Notes: generated by a model not told the origin, from the sequence alone. A DNA stretch of 53,542 nucleotides from Polyangia bacterium (GCA_036268875.1 DATATI010000075.1:1-53542), one strand, 5' to 3'; positions 42,641 through 48,671 are shown, numbered from the stretch's first letter. Made by a program: numbers and translations.

Positions 42641-43930
42641 CTATCCGCGCGTATTGCGGAAGCGGGCCACCGTCGTCGCCTCTGGATTTACGCGGATGGT
42701 CCCGGCGTCGGCGTCGACCACCAGCAGGTGATCTGGCCGCACCCACGAGAACACTCCAGTCACCGACCCCAGCAACGGCACGCCCGCCTCGCGCACGATG
42801 GCGGCCACGGCGCCGTCAACCGGCAGATCGCCGTCGACGACGAAGGCGGAAGCGCCGCGCGAGATGGCGTTCAACACCATGAAGGCGCGCAGGTTCTCCA
42901 CCACCACGATCGCCCCGGTGCGCACCAGCGGACGGCCCGTCGTGGCGGCATGGACCAGCACGCACAGGTCTTCGATCTCCGCGGCACGTTCGGCCATGGC
43001 GTCGGCGGTGGCGTGATCGTTCTGCGCCACGCGGAAGGCCACCCGGGCATATTCGCGCGCCACATCCGACAACGCCGGCAGCGGAGACGGCGCTGCCACG
43101 GCGGCGGACAGACGCTCGCGAAAACGGCGGTCTTCCAAGATCAGCGCCAGCGTCCCCAACTCGCGCGCCAGGGGGCCGCCGATCCGCTGCACGGCCTTGC
43201 CCACTTCGCTCTGCAGGCGCTGCAGCGCCACCTCCAGCGACAGGGGATTGGGCCCGGCCGGCACCTTCGTGTACGACAGCGCGGCCAGCGTGGGCAACAC
43301 CTCGGCGCGTCCCATGGCCGCGCCGCCGGACAGCGAGACACCGCGCAAACGAGCCACACCGTGGTCGGTTTGCCGATCGCGCTCGCGTCCCTCGGCCCGT
43401 TCAAGAGCGTGGCTTATCACCGCCGCCAGCGCGGTGGCCAGCACGACCTCTTCGGCGGCGAACGAGGCCGTCGGCCCACGCTGCAAAACCAGCACGCCGG
43501 TGGCGCCCATCCCCCGCAAGACCGGAACCGCCAGCAGCGCGGGGAACCGTTCCTCTCCCAGGCCCGGGATGTACTTGAAGTGTTCGTCAGCGTCGGCGGC
43601 GGTGACCGACACCGGGCGCAGCCGATCGGCGACGAAGCCGATGATCCCCTCGCCCACGCGCAGGCGCACGCGTCCGATGGCGTCGACGGGAAAACCGACG
43701 TTGCCGCGCATGGTGAACACCGGACCGGCGGCGTCTTCCTCGCGCACGTAGATGCTGACCACGGCGCTGGCGGCGATGGCCGAGACCTCGGTGCACATGG
43801 CGGCCAACACCTCGTCAAGCCCGCGTGCCTGGCCGGCCACCTCGATCAGCCGGAAGATTCCGTCCAGGCTGCGGTCGCCCTGTTCGTGGACGACAATCGA
43901 CGAGTCCGACTCCAGATCCTTCGCCATCAT
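42641..43930 (-). CDS. GAF plus enzyme-I-like protein, degenerate PtsP homologue
   Basis: This 429-residue protein begins with a GAF domain (about 15-180; GIFRLIEVAGQARGLDEVLAAM, VRLRVGEGIIGFVADRLRPV), followed by the N-terminal part of phosphoenolpyruvate:phosphotransferase enzyme I (about 200-429). It resembles PtsP (enzyme I-Ntr) but ends after the swivelling phosphohistidine domain and lacks the PEP-binding TIM barrel. In the phosphohistidine loop the usual SH-x-AI-x-AR is DGAVAAIVREAGVP, so the phospho-accepting His is replaced by Gly373. It can therefore neither bind PEP in the normal way nor be phosphorylated there. A regulatory role sensing a small ligand through GAF is an inference. 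Confidence 0.85.
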   Translation of the reverse strand: MMAKDLESDSSIVVHEQGDRSLDGIFRLIEVAGQARGLDEVLAAMCTEVSAIAASAVVSIYVREEDAAGPVFTMRGNVGFPVDAIGRVRLRVGEGIIGFVADRLRPVSVTAADADEHFKYIPGLGEERFPALLAVPVLRGMGATGVLVLQRGPTASFAAEEVVLATALAAVISHALERAEGRERDRQTDHGVARLRGVSLSGGAAMGRAEVLPTLAALSYTKVPAGPNPLSLEVALQRLQSEVGKAVQRIGGPLARELGTLALILEDRRFRERLSAAVAAPSPLPALSDVAREYARVAFRVAQNDHATADAMAERAAEIEDLCVLVHAATTGRPLVRTGAIVVVENLRAFMVLNAISRGASAFVVDGDLPVDGAVAAIVREAGVPLLGSVTGVFSWVRPDHLLVVDADAGTIRVNPEATTVARFRNTRG

Positions 43931-44035: not shown

Positions 44036-44833
44036 ATGACGAATACGGCCAGTGACGGGCCTGCGCGGCGGCGCCTGGCGCGGATAATTGCCACGACAAT
44101 CCTGTTCGGCCTGGGACTTTTGATCGCCGCGGCGCCGGCGATTTTTCCGTCGGGCCGCGCGACGTTGTGGTTTGTGGGCGGCGGGGCGGCCGTGTGGTTG
44201 TTCCTCGGCGGCACGCTGTGGCGGCGACGAGACTGGAATGTCGCCGCCGACGACGCGCAAGTGATCCGCGGCGGAACACTTACGGTGGGGACGTGGGTGA
44301 CGCTGGCGCGCGGATTGTTGATCAGCGCCCTGGGCGGTTTCCTGCTGGCCCCGCCGGCGACGGGCGCGCCGGCCTGGTTGCCGGGCATGCTGTACACGGC
44401 GGCGGCGCTGGGTGATGGGCTGGACGGCGTGCTGGCCCGGCGACGGCGGCAAGCGACCAAGCTGGGCGCATCGCTGGACGTCACCACCGACGCGGTCGGA
44501 CTGCTGGTGGCGCCGCTTTTGGCGGTGGCGCGCGGACGCTTGCCGCCCTGGTACTTGCTGCTGTCGGCGGCATATCCACTGTTTCAGCTGGGCCTGGGCC
44601 TGCGCGAGCGCTGGCGTTGGCCGACGTTTCGCGCTCGCCTGCGGCCTTACTCCCGGGCGAAGCTTTTTGCCGGCGTGCAGATGGCCGTCGTCGCGGCGGC
44701 GCTTTATCCGGTGCTGCCGCGCTGGGTGCTGTGGCCACTGGCCTCGCTGGCCATGCTGCCGACGCTGGCGCTGTTCGGGCGCGAGTGGCGACTGGCGACG
44801 ACGACCACGGTGATCGAGCCAAGGGCGCGATGA
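44036..44833 (+). CDS. CDP-alcohol phosphotransferase-family membrane enzyme
   Basis: This 265-residue integral membrane protein has the complete CDP-alcohol motif DG-x2-AR-x8-G-x3-D-x3-D (starting DGVLARRRRQATKLG) preceded by GDGL. Two N-terminal TM segments, a soluble segment (RRRDWNVAADDAQVI) and TLTVGTWVTLARGLLISALGGFLL come before it. It transfers a phospho-alcohol from a CDP-linked donor to a lipid or other acceptor; which one is unknown. It converges on the glycosyltransferase at the end of the reductase/pterin-type operon with only 14 bp between stops, so it may belong functionally with it. The ATG at 44036 is the natural start. Confidence 0.85.
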   Translation: MTNTASDGPARRRLARIIATTILFGLGLLIAAAPAIFPSGRATLWFVGGGAAVWLFLGGTLWRRRDWNVAADDAQVIRGGTLTVGTWVTLARGLLISALGGFLLAPPATGAPAWLPGMLYTAAALGDGLDGVLARRRRQATKLGASLDVTTDAVGLLVAPLLAVARGRLPPWYLLLSAAYPLFQLGLGLRERWRWPTFRARLRPYSRAKLFAGVQMAVVAAALYPVLPRWVLWPLASLAMLPTLALFGREWRLATTTTVIEPRAR

Positions 44834-44847
44834 TCGTCGCGCCGCGG

Positions 44848-45924
44848 TCAGCGCGCCGGGTGACAAAGTCGGCGGCACAGCGCCAGCACCGCGTCGGCGG
44901 CGTCCGCCCAGGTCCCCAGCGCGGCAAAACGCGCCAGCGCCGACTGCCCCGCGGCGGCCAAGGCATTTCGATCACCGGCGAAAGAGATCAGCGCCTGCGT
45001 CCACGCCGCCTGATCGTCGGGCGGCAAAAGCAGCGCGTGCGGGCCGGTGGCCAGAAGCTCGCGCGTCCCGCCTTGATCGGTGATCAGCACCGGTAGTCCC
45101 GACGCCAGGGCTTCGATCGCCACCAGCGGGTACGCCTCGCGCGCTGACGGCAGCGCCAGCACGTGGCAGCGACGGTACAGCGCCCACAGCGCGTCGCCGT
45201 GCAAAAGGCCGTGCCAGCGCACGCGATCGAGCAACCGCTGCTCGGCCACCCGTTCTCGCAACATCTGCCCGTACGACGGCGCTTGATCGACAGCCCCGGC
45301 GACGTCGACGGAGAGGTCATGGCCGGCGCGGACCAGCGCCGAAAGCACGTCGACCAACCGGTGCAATCCCTTGGCCGGCGTCACGGTGCCGGCGAACAGC
45401 ACGCGCAACGGTCCGCGTTCGTGCGCGCGCGCCGCCACCGCGTCAGCGTCGTGGGCGGCGACGTGATCGCGGCCAGCAGGCGCGACGGCGCCGAACGAAA
45501 CGCAGCCGGCCAGTTGCTCGACGTCGGCCAGGGTGCTGGCGCAGACCGCGGCCACGCCGTCGACGCCACGCAGGTACGCGCGCTCGATGAAGCCGCGCAG
45601 ACGCCGGTGCCGCGTTGACAGTTGGCGGCAAGCGAGGTTGTGCACCAGCGCCACCACGGGCGCGCCGCCGGCTCGCGCGCGCCGTCGACGGCCGACCACG
45701 GCCGGATGGCAAAGCTCGTCCTCGATCACCACGTCGTATCCACGCAGCGCGCGCGACCACGGCACCAGGTTGGACGCCAGCGCCACCGCGAACGGCAACC
45801 ACGGCAGCGGCACCACGTCGACGGTGGCGCCGCGCGCCCGCAGCGCCGCGATCAGCTGGCGGTCATAGATGAACCCGCCCGACACCCGCTGCAGGCCGCC
45901 AGGCACGACAAAGGCCAGGCGCAT
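44848..45924 (-). CDS. GT4-family glycosyltransferase
   Basis: This 358-residue GT-B glycosyltransferase has an N-terminal acceptor domain (MRLAFVVPGGLQRVSGGFIYDRQL) and a C-terminal donor domain with RVLFAGTVTPAKGLHRLVDVL, then the E-x7-E region PSAREAYPLVAIEALASGLPVLITDQGG, standard for retaining GT4 enzymes. It would add a sugar from an NDP donor to a lipid or small molecule. It is the last gene of the minus-strand operon (reductase, dehydrogenase, pterin-synthase homologue, glycosyltransferase), 23 bp after the pterin-synthase homologue. That context suggests a glycosylated small-molecule product and not a wall polymer. Confidence 0.88.
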   Translation of the reverse strand: MRLAFVVPGGLQRVSGGFIYDRQLIAALRARGATVDVVPLPWLPFAVALASNLVPWSRALRGYDVVIEDELCHPAVVGRRRRARAGGAPVVALVHNLACRQLSTRHRRLRGFIERAYLRGVDGVAAVCASTLADVEQLAGCVSFGAVAPAGRDHVAAHDADAVAARAHERGPLRVLFAGTVTPAKGLHRLVDVLSALVRAGHDLSVDVAGAVDQAPSYGQMLRERVAEQRLLDRVRWHGLLHGDALWALYRRCHVLALPSAREAYPLVAIEALASGLPVLITDQGGTRELLATGPHALLLPPDDQAAWTQALISFAGDRNALAAAGQSALARFAALGTWADAADAVLALCRRLCHPAR

Positions 45925-45947
45925 CGATCAGCGCCGGCCGCCGCCGA

Positions 45948-46334
45948 TCAAGAGAACGTCACCGTGTACGTGGCGAAGGCTTCTTCGTTCTCCCACAACT
46001 TGACCGCCAGCGAGGTCAGATTGCGCGGCTCCAGCGCGCGAACCATCCCTTCGGTCAGGATGCGCGCGAACGGTTCGAGGCCGGGGTTCTGGCCGGCGAA
46101 TTCCGGCAGCTCGTTCAGGGTCTTGTCGCGATAGCGATCGACCAGGCGATCGAGGTGCTCTTTCACCACCGCGATGTCCAGCAAGTAGCCGTGGCGATCC
46201 AGACGCTCGCCGGCGAAGATCACCTCCATCTTGTAGTGGTGGGAGTGCAGCTGGTTTTCGCGCCCCCAGTCACCCCCAAAGAGAAAGTGCTGAGCGACGA
46301 AGTCCCGGATCACGCCGACGGTGTACTGACTCAT
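45948..46334 (-). CDS. 6-pyruvoyl-tetrahydropterin synthase homologue with Cys-to-Glu active site
   Basis: This 128-residue T-fold protein belongs to the PTPS/QueD family. The zinc ligands are His16 (VAQHFLF), His30 and His32 (LHSHHY). In QueD and PTPS the catalytic Cys stands four residues before the second zinc His (C-x-x-L-H-G-H); here that position is Glu26 (E-N-Q-L-H-S-H). A Glu at or beside this position is known from the PTPS-III group, which cleaves dihydroneopterin to 6-hydroxymethyl-dihydropterin, so a QueD or PTPS reaction is unlikely. It lies in an operon 15 bp after an MDR dehydrogenase and before a GT4 gene. No queuosine genes are nearby. Confidence 0.86.
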   Translation of the reverse strand: MSQYTVGVIRDFVAQHFLFGGDWGRENQLHSHHYKMEVIFAGERLDRHGYLLDIAVVKEHLDRLVDRYRDKTLNELPEFAGQNPGLEPFARILTEGMVRALEPRNLTSLAVKLWENEEAFATYTVTFS

Positions 46335-46349
46335 GGTGGCCTCGCTTTT

Positions 46350-47369
46350 TCAGTCGTAGGTGAAAAGAACCTGCAGCGCCGCGGGTGCGTCCGTGTCCAG
46401 CAGCGCGTAAGCCGCCGCGGCCTCGCCGATGGGAAAACGGTGGCTGATCAAAGCAGCGCTGTCCACCCGGCGCAGTAACTGCCACGCCACGTCTCGCCGT
46501 CGCTGGCGATTCCAGCGTCCCGTCAAGGCCGGGGCGATGTGACTGACCTGGCTGCTGACGATGGCGATCCGCCCACGATGAAAATGGCCGCCCAGATCGA
46601 CGGCGCTTTGCTTGCTGCCGTAAAACGATCCCACCACCACCCGCCCTTCGCGCCCGGTCACAACAAGCGCGTCGTTCAACACCTGCGGATTGCCGGTCAG
46701 CTCGAACGCCAGATCAGCGCCAGCGTCGCCCAGCGCGGCACGCGCGCCATCGAGCGACGCCGTAACCGCGTGGGCGCCCAGCGCCCGGCCGTGCGCCGCT
46801 CGGCTGGCCACGCGATCGACGACCACCAATGTGTGCAGTGGAAAGCGGGCCAGCAACGCCGTGGCCAGCAGACCGACCACGCCCTGCCCGAACACCGCCA
46901 CCCGTTCGCCCACCCGCGGGCCGGCGTCCAAGATCAGATTCACCGCCGTCTCGGCGTTGGCCAGCAGCGCCGCTTTTTCCCAGTCGATCCCGTCCGGCAC
47001 CGGCCAGGCCTCATCCGCCGCCACGAAGAACGCGCTGCCGTGGGGCTGAAAGCTGAAGACCCGGCGGCCGATCCAGTCGGAAGCCGCCACGCCGTCGCCG
47101 ACGCCTATCACCTCGCCCACCGCCGCGTACCCGAAGCGAAAGGGAAAGGTCCACCCGGCGCGCCCGCCCTCGCTCGCCAGCGCTGGCAGCGTCTCGTCCA
47201 GTGGAACGTCCGCGGGCAGCTGGCCGCGAAAGGCCAGCCGCTCGGTGCCGGCGCTGATGGCCGAAACGCGGGTGCGCACCAGCAGCGCGCCTGACGGCGG
47301 CGAACCTATCTCTTCCTCGATGACGCTGATTCGCCGCGGTCCGGTGAAGACCAGGGCGCGCCTTCTCAC
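46350..47369 (-). CDS. MDR-superfamily dehydrogenase lacking visible zinc ligands
   Basis: This 339-residue medium-chain dehydrogenase/reductase starts at a GTG (47369) that overlaps the stop of the reductase gene by 4 bp. The Rossmann glycine motif is VAVFGQGVVGLLATALL, and the catalytic domain begins VRTRVSAISAGTERLAFRGQLP, with GTE where classical enzymes have a zinc-binding Cys; no four-Cys structural zinc lobe is seen. It resembles the BchC-like and SAGTE subgroup, usually annotated as zinc-binding alcohol dehydrogenase though zinc is doubtful. NAD(P)(H) dependence is inferred. Operon context ties it to an RibD-type reductase and a PTPS homologue. Confidence 0.86.
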   Translation of the reverse strand: MRRRALVFTGPRRISVIEEEIGSPPSGALLVRTRVSAISAGTERLAFRGQLPADVPLDETLPALASEGGRAGWTFPFRFGYAAVGEVIGVGDGVAASDWIGRRVFSFQPHGSAFFVAADEAWPVPDGIDWEKAALLANAETAVNLILDAGPRVGERVAVFGQGVVGLLATALLARFPLHTLVVVDRVASRAAHGRALGAHAVTASLDGARAALGDAGADLAFELTGNPQVLNDALVVTGREGRVVVGSFYGSKQSAVDLGGHFHRGRIAIVSSQVSHIAPALTGRWNRQRRRDVAWQLLRRVDSAALISHRFPIGEAAAAYALLDTDAPAALQVLFTYD

Positions 47370-48109
47370 CCTGTCCCCCAGCGCAGCGCGCCCGACAGGA
47401 CAAAGTCGTCGGCCAACCGAAAGCTGTCCGGCGACGACAGTCGCGGCAGGTGCCCGTTCTGCAGCGTCCCCACCGCCGCCAAGCCGCCGAGCAGCCGCGG
47501 CGCCACCGTCACCACCGCATAGTCACCAAGCCGCGCGCGCAAAAAACTGGTCAGCACCTTGGCGCCGCCTTCGACCATCAGGCGTTTGATCCCGCTGGCC
47601 GCCAGGGCGACCATCAGCGCATCGAGATCGACCCACCCGTTGGCCCAGGCCGCCAGCCTCAGGATCTGCGCCCCGCGCGCCGTCAGCGGGGTGCCGCGTC
47701 TCTCGTCGGCAGAGGCCGTGCACACGATGCGGATAGGGCGCGGGCCGCCCGAGGCCAGCAGGCGCGCGGTGGGCGGCGTACGCAGCCGGCTGTCCAGAAT
47801 CACGGGCGACGGCCAAGGGCCCGACCAGTGGCGCACGCCCAGCTCCGGATCATCAGCCAGCAGGGTATCGATGCCGACCAGGATTGCGTCGTGCGAGGCG
47901 CGCAAGGCATGAGTCAAGGTCAGCGACTCGCCGCCGCTCAAGGCGTAACGCTGACCCGGCTCGAGGGCGATGCTGCCGTCGATGCTTTGCGCCCATGACA
48001 GAGTGACGAAGGGCCGCCCGTCGCCGCGCCGATCGCGCTCGACGCCGTCAATGGTTTGAAGAACCCGCCCGACGGTGTCGATGGTGGTCTGCGACTGCGA
48101 CTGACTCAG
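47366..48109 (-). CDS. RibD C-terminal-type (DHFR-fold) reductase, probable CTG start
   Basis: This 247-residue stand-alone reductase has the RibD_C fold, which reduces pyrimidine or pterin-like substrates with NADPH. Signatures are PFVTLSWAQSIDGSIAL, LRASHDAILVGIDTLLADDPEL, VILDSRLRTPP and MVEGGAKVLTSFL; there is no deaminase domain. The first ATG/GTG/TTG in frame (TTG 47941) falls inside the conserved domain, so the gene must start upstream. A CTG at 48109 sits 6 nt after a strong GAGGAAGG and restores the expected N-terminus; no ATG, GTG or TTG lies between it and the upstream in-frame stop. It is first in the operon, overlapping the dehydrogenase by 4 bp. Confidence 0.85.
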   Translation of the reverse strand: MSQSQSQTTIDTVGRVLQTIDGVERDRRGDGRPFVTLSWAQSIDGSIALEPGQRYALSGGESLTLTHALRASHDAILVGIDTLLADDPELGVRHWSGPWPSPVILDSRLRTPPTARLLASGGPRPIRIVCTASADERRGTPLTARGAQILRLAAWANGWVDLDALMVALAASGIKRLMVEGGAKVLTSFLRARLGDYAVVTVAPRLLGGLAAVGTLQNGHLPRLSSPDSFRLADDFVLSGALRWGTG

Positions 48110-48168: not shown

Positions 48169-48543
48169 CTATTTTTCAATACCGGTAATGAAGTATTCGG
48201 ACGGTGTGCACCGGAACAACGAATGCAAGTCTTGACGGTACTGCAGCGTGATCCGTTCCGCCGACCGTTCAGCGGCGTGCAGCTGCACCACCAACGGATT
48301 GCTGGGCTTCTCGTCGTCGACGGAGAACTCCCAGATCTCCACCGGCTGCCCGGGAATGGTCCCTTGCAGCGCCATCTCGCCCATCATGTATTTGCAATAC
48401 GGCGGACCTTTGAACGAGATCTTGCGAATCACGCCCGTGCGCGTCCCGCGTGAGTAGCCGCGGAACCACCACACCCGCAACGCCTCCACGCCGACGAAAA
48501 CCATCAACCCGGCCAGCACAAAAAGGATGACCCGGACCTTCAT
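48169..48543 (-). CDS. small membrane-anchored protein of unknown function
   Basis: This is a protein of 124 residues from the ATG at 48543 (a GTG at 48561 would add six). One N-terminal TM or uncleaved signal segment (VRVILFVLAGLMVFVGVEAL) is followed by a soluble domain with GYSRGTRTGVIRKISFKG, LQGTIPGQPVEIWEFSVDD and two Cys residues (YCKYM, FRCTPSEYFITGI). The pattern is like small uncharacterised membrane proteins in which a beta-rich domain sits outside the membrane; I cannot name the family. It lies between rpoN and the reductase operon on the same strand, 59 bp before the CTG start. Confidence 0.72.
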   Translation of the reverse strand: MKVRVILFVLAGLMVFVGVEALRVWWFRGYSRGTRTGVIRKISFKGPPYCKYMMGEMALQGTIPGQPVEIWEFSVDDEKPSNPLVVQLHAAERSAERITLQYRQDLHSLFRCTPSEYFITGIEK

Positions 48544-48671
48544 TTTTCCGCTCACCGGCACGCTCCGACCCTAACACGCCCCCCAGACCCCAGCCCACCG
48601 GCGCCCATTTTTTCCGTGTCGATTTGAGCCGATGGCGATCGATTTGATCGCACTCGCCCTTCCCGCCCTGA

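Follow-up and report, generated by a model that had tools for sequence, protein, structure and literature searches.

The pathways leading to tetrahydrobiopterin glycosides and to cyanopterin start from GTP cyclohydrolase I (GCH I). The order of the early riboflavin steps has been described for archaea in comparison with bacteria (PMC3631187). For PTPS-IV, a subfamily of the PTPS/QueD-like T-fold proteins recognizable by the sequence FGPAQ, a neighbourhood containing RibA and RibD_C was reported in 2017 in the AGeNNT paper (PMC5445326); the subfamily was also treated in Zallot 2016 (PMC5041015). The AGeNNT section on PTPS-IV does not mention medium-chain dehydrogenase (MDR), family 4 glycosyltransferase (GT4), methyltransferase or CDP-alcohol partners, and names PF00925 'GTP cyclohydrolase I/FolE2' (PMC5445326). 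Here we describe a related gene set in a 53,542-nucleotide stretch of DNA, contig C75 of a 6.15 Mb Polyangia genome (GCA_036268875.1, DATATI010000075.1; below, the window). As far as can be judged from sequence, its operon is probably part of a conserved GTP-derived pathway, with a front end of GTP cyclohydrolase II or IIa (GCH II, GCH IIa) plus RibD and a back end of MDR, PTPS homologue, GT4 and CDP-alcohol enzyme. The gene set appears to divert an early vitamin B2 intermediate from GTP to a pterin-like molecule, probably decorated with sugar and possibly linked to the membrane. An earlier note on this DNA had listed the five genes; their positions proved exact to the base, and each gene matched its family in a profile search:

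47366..48109, minus strand: RibD_C reductase, single-domain, without deaminase (PF01872, 130 bits)
46350..47369, minus strand: MDR dehydrogenase, zinc-less, NAD-type (PF00107)
45948..46334, minus strand: T-fold protein resembling PTPS/QueD, zinc type with ExxxH[S/A/G]H (PF01242, 88 bits)
44848..45924, minus strand: GT4 glycosyltransferase with EX7E motif (PF00534)
44036..44833, plus strand: CDP-alcohol phosphotransferase, catalytic motif intact (PF01066, CDP-OH_P_transf)

Conservation of the gene set

Relatives were sought with the MDR in 189 genomes from the phylum of the window, matches with E<1e-30 being counted as strong. The MDR was used as query because the window PTPS, searched phylum-wide, mostly retrieved ordinary QueD-like genes without MDR neighbours. 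Only two other strong matches were found (G083/L063 and G033/L064), both adjoining RibD, a PTPS homologue and GT4. Generic MDR matches with E above 1e-20 (L065 and L066) had no PTPS gene nearby. The RibD, MDR and PTPS frames of G033 (L064:7071-8836) are disrupted, either by decay or by an assembly error. By tblastn the same set was detected on plasmids of haloarchaea, Methylosinus, Rhizobium, Thiodictyon, Streptomyces, Palleronia and Microbacterium. One PTPS homologue, in the cluster on the Haloarcula marismortui plasmid (L069:8950-9394), is spread over two frames and looks frameshifted. When genomes were scanned with the MDR alignment, 80 further loci were obtained, bringing the total to 93 MDR loci from about nine phyla of bacteria and haloarchaea.

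Since the loci were picked by their MDR, the following co-occurrence counts are conditional frequencies. A PTPS homologue was present in 83 of the 93 loci, GT4 in 80, a methyltransferase in 64 and a CDP-alcohol enzyme in 52. RibD was encoded as a separate gene in 49 loci (window included) and as a RibA-RibD fusion in four more. GCH II was matched by profile in 37 loci, three of them doubtful (34-37), and GCH IIa in seven, together about 41. Flippase and sulfatase genes accompanied 25 and 22 loci, respectively. All 93 loci were inspected for GCH I, lumazine synthase and canonical QueD, and none of these was found as a member. In 76 of the 83 loci containing both, the MDR and PTPS genes lay on the same strand no more than 500 bp apart, from Haloarchaea to Actinomycetota. 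This grouping is far beyond chance. The proposal of the earlier note that the genes form one functional set was thus upheld well outside the close relatives of the window, with its CDP-alcohol enzyme as a recurring partner; the additional partners that it had recommended looking for, RibA and a methyltransferase, occur in related loci.

The reductase and the predicted opening of GTP

The predicted front end, in which GTP is converted to 2,5-diamino-6-ribosylamino-4(3H)-pyrimidinone 5'-phosphate (DAROPP) and then to the ribityl form, is strongly supported, as four sequence-based tests converged on it. RibD belongs to the dihydrofolate reductase-fold reductases, as the earlier note had stated. 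Rather than the pterin reductase that the note had implied, the most fitting role for it is reduction of a ribosylaminopyrimidine, with the archaeal/fungal type of substrate, and the pathway should therefore start with GCH II or IIa rather than with GCH I. Its closest curated equivalog model was the archaeal reductase TIGR01508, with a score below the cut-off. The lysine choosing the deaminated substrate, whose role was examined with mutants of yeast Rib7 (PMC3631187), was found in none of the 49 alignable cluster RibDs; the window genome's own housekeeping RibD keeps it. The window RibD has Ser at the Lys151/152 position. Lacking both a Lys equivalent to Lys152 of Escherichia coli RibD and a deaminase, and belonging to a family that retains the equivalents of the catalytic Asp/Glu in 49/50 and 48/50 members, it has the features expected of a DAROPP reductase (ArfC/Rib7 type).

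The haloarchaeal riboflavin pathway already makes the non-deaminated ribityl intermediate, therefore a linked RibD should be dispensable in these organisms. Linked RibD was found in 0/20 haloarchaeal versus 52/72 bacterial loci (fusions included, P=2e-9). In four loci of Chloroflexota and Binatota (L081, L084, L088 and L106) RibA is fused directly to RibD_C, with no deaminase.

SCO6655 of Streptomyces coelicolor is a Met-type GCH II that halts at the formyl intermediate. If Met at RibA Tyr105 stops the reaction there, a deformylase should be needed. All seven RibA loci with a linked creatininase had Met at this position, none of the 26 Tyr-type loci contained a creatininase (P=2e-7), and Met-type RibA was seen only beside such an enzyme. 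Genome-wide, creatininase was present with L148 (Leu-variant), L137 (Met) and L078 (GCH IIa), and none was found in the genomes of the Tyr-type loci L134 and L081. Deformylation of this intermediate has been proven for an enzyme of the creatininase family (PMC9478397). From the linkage, the fusions and the RibA/creatininase pattern we infer that the GCH II product is the likely substrate of the cluster.

The PTPS homologue and the other back-end enzymes

The altered active site ascribed to the PTPS homologue in the earlier note was confirmed: Asp70 replaces the catalytic His, and Glu26 occupies the position of the QueD Cys. The protein retains the zinc ligands (H16, H30 and H32) and the Glu that anchors the pterin (E115), and this Glu is invariant in the PTPS family of the cluster. 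The protein departs from QueD/PTPS-I in having ExxxHSH instead of CxxxHGH and an Asp-His dyad broken by Asp70, the zinc His being retained; it scored 41 bits with the QueD model, whose cut-off is 89. It also departs from the folate-type PTPS-III (ExxHGH), as the Glu stands four, not three, residues ahead of the His (ENQLHSH). At the place of the PTPS-IV signature FGPAQ the window reads GGDWGRENQLHSH. The PTPS-IV neighbourhood of GCH II and RibD_C is present, RibD_C being adjacent and RibA linked in relatives and unlinked in the window genome. The possibility raised in the earlier note that the protein might be an ordinary QueD or folate enzyme was not borne out; a separate QueD is encoded elsewhere in the genome. 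The best match in the Protein Data Bank to the predicted structure (predicted local distance difference test score, pLDDT, 96.7) was SCO6650 (PDB 3d7j, TM 0.92, Z 19.2), followed by QueD (Z 16.9).

In the MDR the Cys of the zinc-dependent enzymes is replaced by A, P, R or S and the His by Tyr in 31/31 aligned members, and the NAD-type Asp (Asp185) is retained in 30/31. The nearest structures to the MDR include RspB and polyol dehydrogenases, and its predicted model has a pLDDT of 91.7. The best curated match, BchC (68 bits), fell below its cut-off of 291; BchC is a separate family, and no bacteriochlorophyll context was seen at the cluster. The EX7E motif of GT4 is intact (PSAREAYPLVAIEA), and the CDP-alcohol phosphotransferase has the full DxxDGxxARx8GxxxDxxxD motif, as do 51/53 cluster homologues. 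In Marmoricola (L152:6649-10119, minus strand) a single frame of 1157 codons encodes both a CDP-alcohol phosphotransferase and a domain of the sulfatase superfamily, a fusion that joins two accessory families of the cluster.

A quick tree of the MDRs, unsure for three long branches, gave two clades separated with an approximate likelihood ratio support (SH-aLRT) of 99. Clade A contained haloarchaea, Chloroflexota, Binatota, Acidobacteriota, Cohnella, Thermodesulfobacteriota, gammaproteobacterial metagenome-assembled genomes (MAGs), a Myxococcota MAG and the window; clade B contained alpha-, beta- and some gammaproteobacteria, actinobacteria and L063. The type of PTPS homologue tracks the MDR clade: clade A has the zinc type (ExxxH[S/A/G]H) and clade B the FGPAQ...LHGAT type ('PTPS-IV'), with the signature region GPAQxLHGAT in 40 clade-B sequences. 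The catalytic His is lost in both types, and the FGPAQ type also lacks one zinc His. Haloarchaea formed one supported group with the window outside it; since this placement is weak, no direction of transfer between haloarchaea and the window lineage is claimed. Flippase, sulfatase and cytochrome b561 genes recur in clade B and point to a putative membrane or exported product. Clusters of clade A are repeatedly accompanied by small hydrophobic multi-pass membrane proteins (L087:7549-8070 and L086:1795-2205), which in haloarchaea are DUF7475-like.

Genomic setting of the window operon

The tight packing described in the earlier note was found as stated: the end of RibD and the beginning of MDR share 4 bp (47366-47369), the MDR-PTPS and PTPS-GT4 gaps are 15 and 23 bp, and the CDP-alcohol gene converges on GT4 across 14 bp. 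No ATG, GTG or TTG start for RibD was found upstream of the conserved N-terminus. The likely start is CTG at 48109, preceded by AGGAAGG, in agreement with the gene end given before. A sigma-70 promoter scan gave no match. Directly upstream on the same strand lies a 130-codon gene (48169-48561, minus strand) encoding an N-terminal membrane segment and having no family match. At the other side, a GAF protein (42641-43930, minus strand) aligns into the PtsP/PEP-phosphotransferase model (PRK11061, 86 bits), the alignment ending before the catalytic half of the model.

Folate, riboflavin and queuosine genes are absent nearby, as claimed before, and occur at other sites: the genome encodes FolE, an ordinary QueD (CxxxHGH, DHH), a bifunctional RibD and RibA. 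Two intact Tyr-type RibA genes lie on other contigs, unlinked to the cluster. The genome also carries a RibBA fusion (L159, G000:C91) whose RibA domain lacks the zinc cysteines.

Discussion

In the proposed pathway GTP would be opened by GCH II, which is unlinked in the window genome, where the two Tyr-type RibA genes would feed the pathway, and linked or fused in other loci. This step would be performed by GCH IIa in haloarchaea, and by Met- or Leu-variant RibA with a creatininase-type deformylase in some actinobacteria. The cluster RibD would reduce DAROPP to the ribityl compound without deamination, and the zinc-less MDR would oxidize one hydroxyl of the ribityl side chain. Oxidation at C2', if it occurs, would produce the Amadori ketone that figures in the GCH I mechanism. 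The T-fold PTPS homologue is expected to perform ring closure or side-chain chemistry on a pyrimidine or pterin; it could close this ketone to a 7,8-dihydroneopterin-type phosphate, which would constitute a FolE-independent pterin route. Judging from co-occurrence, GT4 would add a sugar, a methyltransferase would methylate the product, and the CDP-alcohol enzyme would perhaps join it to a phospholipid. The pterin product, the glycosylation and the lipid link suggested in the earlier note are still matters of inference. It is unlikely, taken as a whole, that haloarchaea and many bacterial phyla have a second natural pterin route bypassing GCH I and giving a phospholipid-carried glycosylated pterin.

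Several observations weigh against the proposed pathway. The C2' oxidation and the ring closure are a proposal made on chemical grounds, and the PTPS homologues may not catalyse at all, because the catalytic His is lost, in the FGPAQ type together with a zinc His. The lysine test excludes the deaminated-substrate type of reductase and does not indicate which substrate is actually bound. A linked RibD proved not to be a constant feature of bacterial clusters, several actinobacterial loci being without one; an unlinked single-domain RibD without the Lys accounts for five of these genomes, L140 not being among them. The RibAs with Met are all actinobacterial, thus they are phylogenetically dependent and not independent cases. 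Finally, the window cluster itself contains no methyltransferase, flippase, sulfatase or cytochrome b.

The same genes could make a different product. If the ribityl chain were retained, the product would be a ribityl-diaminopyrimidine or a deazaflavin-like or lumazine-like compound, the T-fold protein joining another fragment on which the MDR acts. The front end does stop at a ribityl compound, and according to a review, which cites unpublished grounds, PTPS-IV is 'involved in F420' (PMC5041015); however, lumazine synthase was found in 0/93 loci (no specific search was made for Fo synthase), and the structural matches of the T-fold protein are pterin enzymes. We consider this product doubtful. 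A reduced, glycosylated biopterin-like product derived from an unlinked GCH I (FolE) is still less probable. Here the MDR would be a sepiapterin-reductase analogue, RibD a dihydropterin reductase and GT4 a pterin glycosyltransferase. The invariant pterin Glu of the T-fold protein, the FolE gene of the window genome and the report that the RibD homologue Rv2671 is a dihydrofolate reductase (PMC12855090) speak for it. On the other hand, FolE was found in 0/93 loci compared with about 41 for GCH II/IIa, RibA is fused to RibD, the absence of RibD falls exactly on haloarchaea, and the PTPS catalytic His is lost.

That ordinary folate or queuosine enzymes are adjacent by chance is hardly credible. 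The relatives of the PTPS homologue are labelled 6-carboxytetrahydropterin synthase by NCBI, but the genome has its ordinary QueD at another site, the score with the QueD model is less than half of the cut-off, and the neighbourhood is kept across domains.

Many archaeal and bacterial proteins, among them some of soil and salt-lake organisms, that are annotated as '6-carboxytetrahydropterin synthase' or 'zinc-binding alcohol dehydrogenase' may belong to this pathway. The front end is specific enough for assays on purified enzymes. Should the back end also be true, pterins could be made without GCH I, and PTPS subfamilies that so far have no function would gain one.

The statement of the earlier note that no characterised pathway has this gene set appears to hold for the full set; the set is not wholly new, since the RibA/RibD_C neighbourhood was published in the AGeNNT section on PTPS-IV (PMC5445326). 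In the collection of papers searched, nothing on the product, on the complete gene set or on SCO6650/6655 was found beyond PMC5445326 and PMC5041015. The pathway is uncharacterised yet partly noticed before, and what appears to be new is the zinc-type PTPS lineage that includes the window, and the assignment of the front end. With PTPS-IV the cluster shares the partners RibA and RibD_C, and clade B has exactly the PTPS-IV type. The window protein differs in lacking FGPAQ and in keeping the zinc HxH within ExxxHSH, clade A being a second lineage. SCO6650 of Streptomyces coelicolor, the closest fold to the window model, is of the FGPAQ type and only about 25% identical to the window protein; it is not known to catalyse the PTPS reaction. 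The archaeal/fungal early steps of riboflavin and F420 synthesis (GCH III/ArfA, ArfB and ArfC/Rib7) are the same first steps, with the same intermediates, as those proposed for the cluster. In the cluster, however, these steps would be used by bacteria, with no deaminase or lumazine synthase, and would lead into PTPS, MDR and GT4. The tetrahydrobiopterin glycoside and cyanopterin pathways likewise combine a T-fold enzyme, a dehydrogenase or reductase and a glycosyltransferase; the cluster differs from them by GCH II/IIa.

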